Shown: positions 43,363-52,320 of the stretch, one piece after another
Layout of the letters: every line of letters starts with the position of its first letter
Position numbering within the stretch: the first letter of the stretch is position 1
The notes under the pieces: generated by a model
The model's input: only the letters and a program-made list of their open reading frames with translations
What the model was told of the DNA's origin: nothing
Database searches by the model: none
Program-made: the position numbers and the translations under genes
NCBI RefSeq assembly: GCF_903969135.1
Contig: NZ_LR824569.1
Span: 310,001 to 374,000 of the forward strand
Source of the DNA: Chryseobacterium sp. JV274
GTDB taxonomy: Bacteria > Bacteroidota > Bacteroidia > Flavobacteriales > Weeksellaceae
Reading direction: 5' to 3'
Length of the DNA: 64,000 nucleotides

Positions 43363-44456
43363 AGATTGCCTTTGATGCAAAACGGTTTTTCCACAATACC
43401 TCAGGTCTGGGAAATTACTCAAGAGATCTTGTAAGAATTCTCTCCGAATACAAACCGGATAACGAATATCTGTTACTCAACAAAAATAAATCGGAGAGAG
43501 GGAAAGGTATTCTGGAACGCCCTAATGTTCAATTTATTGAAACCTCAAAAGGGAACTTTTCACGTCAGTTGAAAATGGGTAAAGATGCCCAAAAACAAGA
43601 AGCTGATATTTTCCATGGATTATCTGGCGAACTTCCTTTAAAATGGGATTCAAGACCTATTAAAAAGGTCGTTACCATTCATGATCTGATCTTTGTAAGA
43701 TATCCGCAGTATTATTCTTTTTTTGACAGGAAAATCCATTTCTGGAAATTTAAAAAAGCGGCTGATATGGCTGATAAAATCATCGCTATTTCAGAACAGA
43801 CCAAAAGAGATATTATTCAGTATTTAAAAGTTCCTGAGACAAAGATTGAAGTTATTTATCAGGGATGTCATCATGCTTTTAAAGAACAGCAGTCTCCGGA
43901 ACTGATGCAGGTTGTAAAAGAAAAATTTAAGCTTCCGGAAAGGTTTATACTTAATGTTGGAACCATCGAAGAGCGCAAAAATCTTTTGAATGTTGTAAAA
44001 GCAGTCAACGGTACGGAAATTCCTCTTGTAGTTGTGGGACGAAAGACCAAATATTATCAGAAAATAGAACGTTTCCTGAAAAAAAACAAAATGGAAAAGC
44101 AAGTGCTCTTCCTTGAAGGAGTTTCTATGGACGAGCTGGCTTGTCTTTATAAACTGGCAGATATTTTTGTCTATCCGAGTTTCTTTGAAGGCTTTGGAAT
44201 CCCTGTGATTGAGGCGCTTTTTTCTAAAACTGTTGTCGTTACCAGCAATACCAGTTGTCTGCCGGAAGCCGGAGGAAAAGACTCTGTGTATGTGAATCCG
44301 GATAATGATCTTGATATCATGGCTAAACTAAAATTTCTCTGGGAAAATGAATCCGAGAGAAAACGCCGTGAGGAAAAGGGTTTCGAGTTTGTTCAGAAGT
44401 TTAATGACGAACCCATTGCAAAAGAGCTGATGAATTTTTATCAAAAAATTATCTGA
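43359..44456 (+). CDS. GT4-family glycosyltransferase
   Basis: A 365-residue retaining glycosyltransferase of the GT-B fold. The N-terminal acceptor domain starts MKIAFDAKRFFHNTSGLGNYSRDL; the C-terminal donor domain has GTIEERKNLLNVVKA and the E-x7-E motif in SFFEGFGIPVIEAL. It is translationally coupled to the deacetylase gene by a four-base overlap and is the last gene of the glycan cassette. The his leader promoter follows immediately. Donor sugar is unknown. Confidence 0.93.
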   Translation: MKIAFDAKRFFHNTSGLGNYSRDLVRILSEYKPDNEYLLLNKNKSERGKGILERPNVQFIETSKGNFSRQLKMGKDAQKQEADIFHGLSGELPLKWDSRPIKKVVTIHDLIFVRYPQYYSFFDRKIHFWKFKKAADMADKIIAISEQTKRDIIQYLKVPETKIEVIYQGCHHAFKEQQSPELMQVVKEKFKLPERFILNVGTIEERKNLLNVVKAVNGTEIPLVVVGRKTKYYQKIERFLKKNKMEKQVLFLEGVSMDELACLYKLADIFVYPSFFEGFGIPVIEALFSKTVVVTSNTSCLPEAGGKDSVYVNPDNDLDIMAKLKFLWENESERKRREEKGFEFVQKFNDEPIAKELMNFYQKII

Positions 44457-44463
44457 AAAAACT

Positions 44464-44492
44464 TTGCATTTTAAAAATAAATCCTACATTTG
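44464..44492 (+). promoter_or_regulatory. Promoter of the histidine operon
   Basis: TTG at 44464-44466 and TACATTTG at 44485-44492 have an 18-base spacer, a strong flavobacterial promoter 17 bases before the leader peptide ATG. Confidence 0.8.
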
Positions 44493-44509
44493 CATCATAA
44501 TTCAATACA

Positions 44510-44560
44510 ATGAAACCAGTATTTTTAGCATTACATCATTACTATCATCATCTCTGTTAG
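44510..44560 (+). CDS. hisL: Histidine-operon leader peptide
   Basis: A 16-codon frame reading MKPVFLALHHYYHHLC. Four of six consecutive codons are His (44534-44539 and 44546-44551), the hallmark of his attenuation: scarcity of charged tRNA-His would stall the ribosome here. It lies between a strong promoter and a terminator in front of hisG. The peptide itself needs no other function. Identification rests on position and His density rather than on homology. Confidence 0.88.
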   Translation: MKPVFLALHHYYHHLC

Positions 44561-44637
44561 GCGGAATTGATTGATATAAGTTTGTGCTAAAATCAAAAAA
44601 TAATTAAAACCGTCTGAGTAAATAGACGGTTTTTTTG
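44560..44637 (+). promoter_or_regulatory. Histidine attenuator (antiterminator and terminator)
   Basis: The terminator is AAAACCGTCT (44606-44615) paired with AGACGGTTTT (44624-44633) plus a T-run. GGCGG at 44560-44564, directly after the leader codons, can instead pair with CCGTC (44610-44614) and would block the terminator. A ribosome stalled on the His codons leaves GGCGG free, whereas one that reaches the stop covers it. hisG starts at 44706. Confidence 0.8.
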
Positions 44638-44705
44638 TTTCCTGAATTCTCCTCAGAAATTTCAATAGATCAGTTTTTATTTACTCGGACCCCAAAAAAG
44701 GCAAA

Positions 44706-45563
44706 ATGAGTAAATTAAAAATTGCAATCCAAAAAAGCGGCCGGCTTTACGAAGAATCTCTACAGCTTCTCAAAGACTGCGGAATCTTTGTCAACAATGG
44801 TAAAGACCAACTCAAAGTTTCAGTAGATAACTTTCCGATGGAAATCATGTATCTTCGGAATTCAGACATCCCGCAATATCTGGAAGATGGAGTGGTAGAT
44901 GTTGCTATTCTTGGCGAAAATCTTCTGATTGAAAAAGGTAAAAATATCACCACAATCCAGAAACTTGGATTTTCAAAATGCCGTGTTTCACTGGCTGTTC
45001 CCAAAGAAGTAGAGACCGACGAAATCTCTTATTTTCAGGGTAAAAAAATTGCTACCTCTTATCCTAATACTCTCAAAAGCTTTTTAGAAAAAAAAGGAAT
45101 TGTATCAGACATTCACGTTATTTCAGGTTCTGTGGAAATTGCCCCTAATATTGGTCTGGCAGATGGAATATGTGATATTGTAAGCTCCGGAAGTACCTTA
45201 TTTAAAAACGGATTAAGAGAAACCGTTACTTTGCTGAAATCGGAGGCTGTTTTGGCTCAAACGCCTCAGTTGTCAACTGAAAAAGAAGCCATTCTTGAAA
45301 AATTCGTATTCAGAATTGAAGCCGTTTTAAAAGCAAAAAATTCAAAATACATTCTGATGAATGTTCCCAACGAAAAAATCCAGAAAGTCGCTGAAGTTCT
45401 TCCCGTATTAAAGAGTCCTACAGTCATTCCATTGGCAGAAGAAGGCTGGAGCAGTATTCATTCTGTTATTGATGAAGAGCGCTTCTGGGAAGTGATTGAT
45501 GAACTGAAAGACAATGGAGCCCAGGATATTTTAATCATCCCGATTGATAAAATGGTTATTTAG
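44706..45563 (+). CDS. hisG: ATP phosphoribosyltransferase, long form
   Basis: First enzyme of histidine synthesis; it joins ATP and PRPP to phosphoribosyl-ATP. The 285-residue protein is the long, homo-hexameric form with a C-terminal regulatory domain (about 210-285) that binds histidine, so no HisZ partner is required. IAIQKSGRLYEESLQLLKDCG, DVAILGENLL and the PRPP loop GLADGICDIVSSGSTLFKNG are visible. It is first in the operon behind the attenuator. Confidence 0.97.
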   Translation: MSKLKIAIQKSGRLYEESLQLLKDCGIFVNNGKDQLKVSVDNFPMEIMYLRNSDIPQYLEDGVVDVAILGENLLIEKGKNITTIQKLGFSKCRVSLAVPKEVETDEISYFQGKKIATSYPNTLKSFLEKKGIVSDIHVISGSVEIAPNIGLADGICDIVSSGSTLFKNGLRETVTLLKSEAVLAQTPQLSTEKEAILEKFVFRIEAVLKAKNSKYILMNVPNEKIQKVAEVLPVLKSPTVIPLAEEGWSSIHSVIDEERFWEVIDELKDNGAQDILIIPIDKMVI

Positions 45564-51736: not shown

Positions 51737-52320
51737 AAATAGATTTTAATAAAGATAATGGCCTTGTTCCTGTAGTTATCCAGGATAACAGAACTTTACA
51801 GGTACTGATGCTGGGTTACATGAATGAAGTGGCTTTTGAAAAAACGAAAAAAGAAGGCATTGTTACTTTTTTCAGCCGTTCCAAAAACAGACTCTGGACA
51901 AAAGGTGAAGAATCGGGTAATTTTTTAACGGTAAAAAGCATTGATATAGACTGTGATCAGGATACCCTATTAATTAAAGTTGTTCCTAAAAATGTGGTCT
52001 GTCATACAGGAAGTTTCAGCTGTTTCGGAGAAAAGAATACTAAGGGATTTTTATATGAACTGGAAGAGAAAATATCTCAGAGAATAGATAACAAAACAGA
52101 AGATTCTTATACTTATTCATTATACCAGAGAGGAATCAATAAAATGGCTCAAAAAGTAGGAGAGGAAGCTGTAGAATTGGTGATAGAAGCAAAAGATAAT
52201 AACGAAGATCTTTTTAAAAATGAAGCTGCAGATCTGCTGTATCACTTTTTGATTTTATTGAAAGCAAAAGGATTTACATTGGAAGAAATAGAGGAGATTC
52301 TTCAGGACAGGAATAAATAA
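51733..52320 (+). CDS. hisIE: Bifunctional phosphoribosyl-AMP cyclohydrolase / phosphoribosyl-ATP pyrophosphatase
   Basis: A 195-residue fusion catalysing steps two and three of histidine synthesis. The HisI part (1-105) has the metal-binding [13 protein letters not shown] and [11 protein letters not shown] cysteines; the HisE part (about 115-195) has [21 protein letters not shown] and [18 protein letters not shown]. It starts within the last codon of hisF and closes the his operon; no terminator is evident directly after it. Confidence 0.96.

Follow-up and report, generated by a model that had tools for sequence, protein, structure and literature searches.

Leader-peptide attenuation is usually taught from Proteobacteria, and the mechanism of the enterobacterial his attenuator (Rfam RF00514, His_leader) is well described. 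The Bacteroidia are a major lineage of gut, soil, and water in which RNA regulation has been little studied. The mechanism of his attenuation is summarised in PMC9413887, the accessible sections of which also describe His-leader attenuators in Firmicutes, with a short leader, three to five His codons, and alternative hairpins; the string "bacteroid" occurs nowhere in its main text. In Flavobacterium psychrophilum, a structured 5' element lies before hisG, recurs in other Flavobacteriaceae genera, and gave no Rfam hit, and the same paper reports strong clues for leader-peptide attenuation before amino acid biosynthesis operons (PMC9723704). The existence of a hisG 5' element is therefore already in print; the portions of that paper at hand describe no peptide, helices, or start-codon pairing. 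In the LEU element and the translational T-boxes of Actinobacteria, the start or Shine-Dalgarno region is sequestered, as described in the portions of PMC1262725 available to us. Among the matches listed in a search of open-licence titles and abstracts, we recognised no Bacteroidota his leader besides that of PMC9723704 and no terminator that copies the start of its own gene.

We analysed a 64,000-nucleotide stretch (the window) of the 5.23-Mb, single-contig genome of Chryseobacterium sp. JV274. Like the enterobacterial his attenuator, its hisG upstream region has a tandem-His leader peptide, an antiterminator, and a terminator before the his operon. Unlike the enterobacterial case, the antiterminator strand (AT) overlaps the leader stop codon, there is an additional downstream element (DN), the terminator loop copies the hisG start, and RF00514 does not match. 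An Rfam scan gave no family at gathering score, RF00514 was absent from the E ≤ 1 list for positions 44400 to 44800, and no described family of T-box or metabolite riboswitch was matched. The Firmicutes attenuators share the short His leader and the alternative hairpins; they belong to another phylum, and the accessible sections of PMC9413887 describe no DN-type downstream element for them. With the actinobacterial LEU element and translational T-boxes, the region would share the hiding of the regulated gene's start region by an RNA strand. There, as far as the available portions of PMC1262725 go, the sequestor replaces the terminator, whereas in Chryseobacterium both are present and use one shared strand. 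We consider it probable that histidine attenuation by a stalled ribosome is joined here by a second tier that acts on translation.

The His leader and its distribution

The following features precede and open the his operon, which extends from hisG to about position 52320 in the ORF list.

44464..44492, + strand: promoter TTG-N18-TACATTTG, from reading the sequence (TTG at 44464-44466, TACATTTG at 44485-44492)
44510..44560, + strand: leader ORF of 16 codons, MKPVFLALHHYYHHLC (ATG at 44510, stop codon TAG at 44558-44560)
44523..44531, + strand: 5' side of the outer anti-antiterminator, in leader codons 5 to 8 (partner 44584-44592, minimum free energy fold)
44544..44556, + strand: 5' side of the inner anti-antiterminator, ATCATCA plus TCTG, in Tyr, His, Leu, and Cys codons (RNAalifold)
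44557..44564, + strand: antiterminator strand AT, TTAGGCGG, pairing with CCGTCTGA at 44610-44617
44562..44575, + strand: 3' side of the inner anti-antiterminator, CGGA plus TGATTGAT, predicted to sequester AT when no ribosome is present (RNAalifold)
44608..44636, + strand: intrinsic terminator (stem 44608-44616/44623-44631, loop, seven T residues at 44630-44636)
44706..45563, + strand: hisG, 285 amino acids, first gene of the his operon (ORF list and homologues)

The TTG-N18 promoter, the 17-base gap between TACATTTG and the leader ATG, the 16-codon leader, and the order His-His-Tyr-Tyr-His-His were all found where the original prediction had placed them, and so was the terminator between leader and hisG. 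The four His codons occupy 44534-44539 and 44546-44551, and GGCGG at 44560-44564 overlaps the leader stop codon. The promoter is of the Bacteroidetes type; a TAcaTTTG block in the promoter region is kept across the genus alignment. We take hisG, a name also given in the original prediction, to encode ATP phosphoribosyltransferase. Its 80 closest named loci are 81 to 98% identical, and all carry Chryseobacterium titles save two Weeksellaceae MAGs. The fold of the leader was more stable than that of shuffled sequences (z = −3.38, 0/200 shuffles).

hisG was found in 93/98 genomes of a genus sample, 186/246 of a family sample, 104/196 of an order sample (presumably Flavobacteriales), 128/295 of a class sample, and 171/198 of a phylum sample; these samples overlap. 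The genus upstream regions came from 90 of the 93 genomes with hisG (G039, G063, and G090 were left out). We examined the DNA upstream of 249 hisG loci (L001 to L249, 245 of them distinct) from a subset of the genomes with a match, and scored as a leader any ATG-initiated ORF of 6 to 45 codons within 300 nt that had at least three His codons in seven. Such a leader was present in 235 of the 245 distinct regions, all sampled within class Bacteroidia, compared with 1/245 reverse strands and 24/2450 shuffles. At least four His codons in seven were found in 216 of the 245 regions and in a single shuffle. The same criterion picked out no leader before pheA (22 regions), ilvD (19), or trpE (24), 65 regions in all. 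Under residue criteria for these operons, single short-ORF matches at a pheA, a thrA, and an ilvD locus (L346, L377, and L391) were not counted as leaders; the thrA flank, about 85 nt for most loci, is too short to judge.

In other classes of the phylum, 13 of 20 hisG loci had a His-rich short ORF upstream, opened by ATG in 11, a count without a matched control. These are L441 and L444 to L455; two have only GTG or TTG starts, and some are very His rich. The leader count bore out the original prediction overall. The design is not confined to this lineage: the leader recurs throughout the class sample, and a His-rich short ORF is present in those 13 loci outside it. Judged by sequence comparison, we regard as real both the recurrence of a his attenuator through the sampled Bacteroidia and the concentration of a covarying start-codon element, described below, in Flavobacteriales.

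Several loci depart from the common layout. Ten of the 245 regions lacked a leader, among them L210 and L211 (family f16), two tiny genomes of 0.6 Mb that retain hisG yet have no His-rich leader by our criterion. At L089 (genome G065) and L090 (G093), the hisG frame is interrupted and the His leader is intact. In genus g35, seven loci (L180, L191, L194, L196, L197, L199, and L203) have a second His mini-ORF between leader and hisG. It reads MHVNHHILKPV or a variant (MHVNHHI in L197), and, where it is complete, it ends at the TGA in the terminator arm. This mini-ORF was considered as a candidate second sensor.

Alternative helices and the control of termination

We measured pairing in an alignment of 68 sequences, made up of 64 non-genus loci that passed a loose filter (6 of 11 matches to the modal DN, passed by 182/183) with duplicates removed, plus four genus loci. 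The terminator stem was paired in 97.9% of cells, and a terminator-like hairpin was present in 236 of the 239 loci with a leader. Its 5' arm and loop (44610-44622, CCGTCTGAGTAAA) form the strand common to the alternative pairings and copy the hisG start (TGAGTAAA). The pairing of AT with this arm held in 82.6% of cells, compared with 22.8 to 39.5% in controls slid out of register; the GGCGG/CCGTC type of pairing is thus kept among relatives, as had been asked of it.

Two further helices are the anti-antiterminators. In the outer one, a change between AGCA/TGCT and AACA/TGTT is visible by eye in the genus alignments, uncounted. In the inner one, RNAalifold on 25 genus sequences found two pairs with double changes. 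The picture of a simple two-state switch must be given up, with at least five alternative helices supported. The single competing helix of the original prediction does exist as the AT:arm pairing; the anti-antiterminator and the pairings of DN with the arm and with the hisG start had been missed.

We then modelled stalls by folding, for every codon position of the ribosome, the RNA that it left free as far as the end of the terminator loop, with a program in which pseudoknots are impossible. In the window, the predicted probability of the AT pairing, P(AT), was 0.98 to 0.999 with codons 9 to 13 in the A site, 0.37 to 0.43 at the last His codon, and at most 0.001 at the Leu codon, at the stop codon, or with the ribosome absent. 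Averaged over the longer, 8-bp AT, it was 0.74 at the third His codon and 0.28 at the fourth. Across 20 modelled loci, P(AT) was at least 0.85 at the first two His codons and 0.00 at the stop. The spacing recurred too: the first His codon lay 21 to 26 nt upstream of AT in all 20 loci, and the last lay 8 to 12 nt upstream in 17 loci; of the other three, two had 3 nt and one had 15 nt. Without a ribosome, P(AT) was high in some relatives (0.98 in L162, 0.85 in L139, 0.77 in L164, 0.74 in L240, and 0.68 in L117), so the strength of the anti-antiterminator is uneven among them. Once the 3' arm of the terminator was included, the equilibrium fold was the terminator at every ribosome position tried. 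The order of transcription must therefore decide, as in other attenuators.

The region has the clustered-His leader ORF and the intrinsic terminator of a ribosome-mediated his attenuator, and for the window the modelling predicts an antiterminator that excludes the terminator and is exposed only by a stall on the His codons. When histidine is scarce, a ribosome stalled on those codons would open the anti-antiterminator and free AT (UUAGGCGG), which would pair with the terminator 5' arm and let RNA polymerase continue into hisG. When histidine is plentiful, a ribosome at the stop codon would mask AT, the terminator arms would pair, and transcription would stop. The conserved His codons, the mutual exclusion of AT and terminator pairing, and the codon-to-antiterminator spacing in relatives all agree with the attenuation originally proposed. 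On this comparative and modelled evidence, the region is very probably a ribosome-mediated his attenuator of classical logic.

The Tyr codons within the His tract had been called unexplained. The 106 distinct genus loci have the tracts HHYYHH (45 loci), HHYHHH (41), HHYHH (15), and others (5). Of the six-codon tracts in the genus, 46 have Tyr and 43 have His at position 4, and the near-equal numbers of HHYYHH and HHYHHH show that it flips between the two by one transition. At position 5, a His-to-Tyr change in L039 is offset by a change in its anti-antiterminator partner, and the same change in L060 and L067 is retained as a G-U pair. These changes explain the Tyr pair only in part; position 3 (window, 44540-44545) is nearly invariant in the genus, with Tyr in 104 of the 106 loci, and mostly His elsewhere. 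In the stall model of the window, a stall on either Tyr codon would expose AT too. Cross-sensing of tyrosine was considered and is not claimed, because position 4 flips between His and Tyr.

A downstream element matching the terminator arm and the hisG start

The second set of pairings involves DN, about 15 nt upstream of hisG, and the start of the gene itself.

44680..44690, + strand: DN element, TTTACTCGGAC, with 11 bp to the terminator arm and loop and 8 bp to the hisG start
44706..44714, + strand: hisG start, ATGAGTAAA, complementary to DN and repeated in the terminator loop

With the terminator arm and loop (GUCUGAGUAAA; GTCTGAGTAAA), DN can form 11 base pairs. A duplex between the arm and downstream sequence was better than in shuffles (p ≤ 0.05) in 171 of 226 distinct loci with leader and terminator. 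These belong mainly to the genus, family, and order samples; outside the order they are L165, L166, L240, and L248. Among the loci listed, those of the class sample whose terminator has the form AGGCTTACC...GGTAAGCCT had no such duplex at p ≤ 0.05. A match of 7 of 8 between loop and DN was absent in 15 of 189 arm-motif loci. In 78 named loci with sufficient upstream DNA, the DN motif was found in 76 and an exact copy of the start in the loop in 60.

In the 68-sequence alignment, the arm:DN helix was paired in 90.1% of cells, compared with 20.8 to 41.0% when slid, and it had 67 double-change cells against 22.0 in shuffles, a comparison that ignores kinship. A second alignment of 71 sequences combined 19 hand-picked genus loci with 52 from outside the genus in which loop and DN formed 7 or more of 8 pairs; the arm:DN figure there, 95.8%, is biased upward because its rows were selected by the loop:DN match or by hand.

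Two observations fit a system that attenuates transcription alone, in which DN would pair with arm and start for other ends, for instance to rid the mature mRNA of its terminator hairpin or to shield the 5' end against decay. When the hisG coding sequence was excluded from the fold, RNAalifold chose the arm:DN helix over the terminator. DN also ends 23 to 33 nt upstream of the ATG in 13 of the 16 g35 loci listed, and the usual 30S footprint ends downstream of such a position. The transcription tier would then account for the whole leader. This reading accounts neither for the complementarity of DN to the hisG start nor for a loop that looks like that start and tends to track it from genus to genus, and we hold it to be unlikely.

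The complementarity to the start took several forms. In the predicted fold of the read-through RNA, DN was paired with the hisG start (AUGAGUAAA), which the terminator loop resembles, and P(DN:hisG) exceeded 0.5 in 152 of 166 loci. DN:hisG was paired in 93.1% of cells of the 71-sequence alignment. It had 36 double-change cells against 11.5 in shuffles, kinship again being ignored; the pairs carrying double changes numbered four in these 71 sequences, not above shuffles. By prediction and covariation only, the hisG start is thus paired with an upstream strand, as in start-sequestering systems. Of 161 distinct DN loci, 138 had a hisG start complementary to its upstream region (p ≤ 0.05), compared with 7 of 60 others. 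DN also fitted its own hisG start better than the starts of other loci, with 396 Watson-Crick pairs against a mean of 361.5 and a maximum of 388 after permutation (p = 2e-4; 65 triples, DN sites picked by the loop alone, relatedness ignored).

Loop and start varied broadly together. Both were TGAGTAAA in 91 of the 189 arm-motif loci. MNK starts (TGAACAAA) accompanied the loops TGAACAAA or TGAGCAAA, the MST starts of g35 accompanied TGAGTACA, and MSS starts (TGAGTTCA) accompanied TGAGTTTT. Over 36 combinations, their likeness was above that of permuted sets (p = 2e-4, relatedness ignored). The copy is not strict: in the genus, 15 loci whose hisG opens with MST or MSI (TGAGTACA in 7, TGAGTATA in 8) keep the loop TGAGTAAA. 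Where loop and hisG disagree, DN fitted the loop better in 34 cases and hisG in 15, with 7 ties. hisG opened with MS or MN in 170 of 174 DN loci, compared with 9 of the 15 arm-motif loci that lack a good DN.

Codon choice at the start was also skewed. In 79 named Chryseobacterium hisG genes (L322 was dropped, its match beginning at residue 6), the Ser2 codon was AGT wherever Ser occurred (share 1.00), against top-codon shares of 0.30 to 0.94 in 18 other conserved Ser columns. AT-rich codons are common at gene starts in general, and we therefore take the Ser2 bias as supporting only. The AAA share of 1.00 at Lys3 says little, because Lys5 is also at 1.00 and other Lys columns reach 0.99. At one locus, L248, hisG opens with ML, TGAGCA overlaps the ATG, and a matching DN is present, as might be expected if the start region, and not a codon, were what is locked.

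The trpE genes served as a control. All 24 genus genomes (L399 to L422) have a leader with WWW and a terminator upstream of trpE, and this is a trp attenuator. Its leaders have 25 to 26 codons and a similar tail, mostly SNSSSGL..LSCC, before the terminator. The trpE start paired with its upstream region at p ≤ 0.05 in none of the 24, so a start copy is not a general trait of attenuators in the genus. Pairing of the trpE attenuator arm reached this threshold in two, L400 (p = 0.03) and, from the genome that holds the window, L403 (p = 0.05).

That result bears on whether DN, start, and loop are alike through chance or shared ancestry, with no function. In favour of this, the sequences are AT rich and related, and the shuffle and permutation tests take no account of the tree. 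Such an explanation must contend with the negative trp control for start pairing, with matched changes in several genera (AACAA/TTGTT, GTACA/TGTAC, GAGTTTT/AGAACTC, and AATAA/TTATT), and with slid controls for arm:DN and DN:hisG that paired in 20 to 46% of cells against 90 to 93% in register. We find it hardly credible. The network of arm:DN, DN:hisG, and loop copy is well supported.

Energetics and a possible lock on hisG translation

By energies, the resting state would be the terminator together with DN:hisG, which lay below arm:DN in 153 of 166 loci. Read-through RNA carries DN, which would pair with the hisG start (UGAGUAAA) and hide it. The terminator arm and loop amount to a copy of that start plus about three extra DN-complementary bases, and might thereby compete for DN. 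Before hisG is transcribed, arm:DN was lower in energy than AT:arm in 169 of 174 loci and near the terminator, which was the lower in 80 of 174. On these energies, a stalled ribosome would let DN seize the arm and hisG would emerge open: with AT holding the arm out of the terminator, DN, made before hisG, may take it over through 11 bp. Where the terminator had formed, DN would close the start. A single stall would then switch transcription and translation jointly, and leaky read-through RNA would be silent.

Which way this translational step runs is an inference, and the equilibrium folds are in part against it. With hisG present, just 61 of 174 loci had the open state (arm:DN) below the closed one (AT with DN:hisG), so that an open start during starvation would depend on kinetics or on translating ribosomes. 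AT, 8 to 10 bp long, covered much of the arm used by DN in 15 of the 20 modelled loci. A state combining AT with partial loop:DN pairing was modelled and not favoured (mean −26.7 against −31.4 kcal/mol). Both the 61 of 174 loci and the coverage of the arm by AT would suit the opposite wiring, in which AT keeps the arm and a free DN closes hisG during the stall, delaying or damping expression until the ribosome moves. Such wiring would repress the pathway at histidine shortage, and it runs against the lower energy of arm:DN than of AT:arm before hisG is made; we judge it improbable.

The complementarity of loop and DN could also operate between molecules, the terminated leader RNA binding through its copy of the hisG start to the DN of a read-through mRNA. 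An attenuator RNA, rnTrpL, reportedly acts in trans elsewhere. Here part of the complementary stretch lies in the terminator stem, where its bases are tied up in the hairpin, and binding to DN would open hisG at high histidine, which makes action in trans very improbable.

On a translational lock on the hisG start as the function of the second tier, we stand slightly on the favourable side. The fuller proposal is a relay within a single RNA, passing by strand displacement from the leader ribosome to AT, the arm, DN, and the hisG start, so that read-through and access to the start are set together and leaky RNA is silent. In such a relay, evolution would hold copy, DN, and start broadly together across Flavobacteriales and in a few relatives outside the order, and we put the relay at evenly balanced.

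Bacteria of this lineage rarely use Shine-Dalgarno sites. Leader-peptide attenuation before hisG reaches across the sampled Bacteroidia. If the translational tier is true, the region would be a compact natural design in which a start-copying strand links termination to translation initiation, and it would offer a concrete handle, simple to mutate, on translation control in bacteria that seldom rely on such sites.
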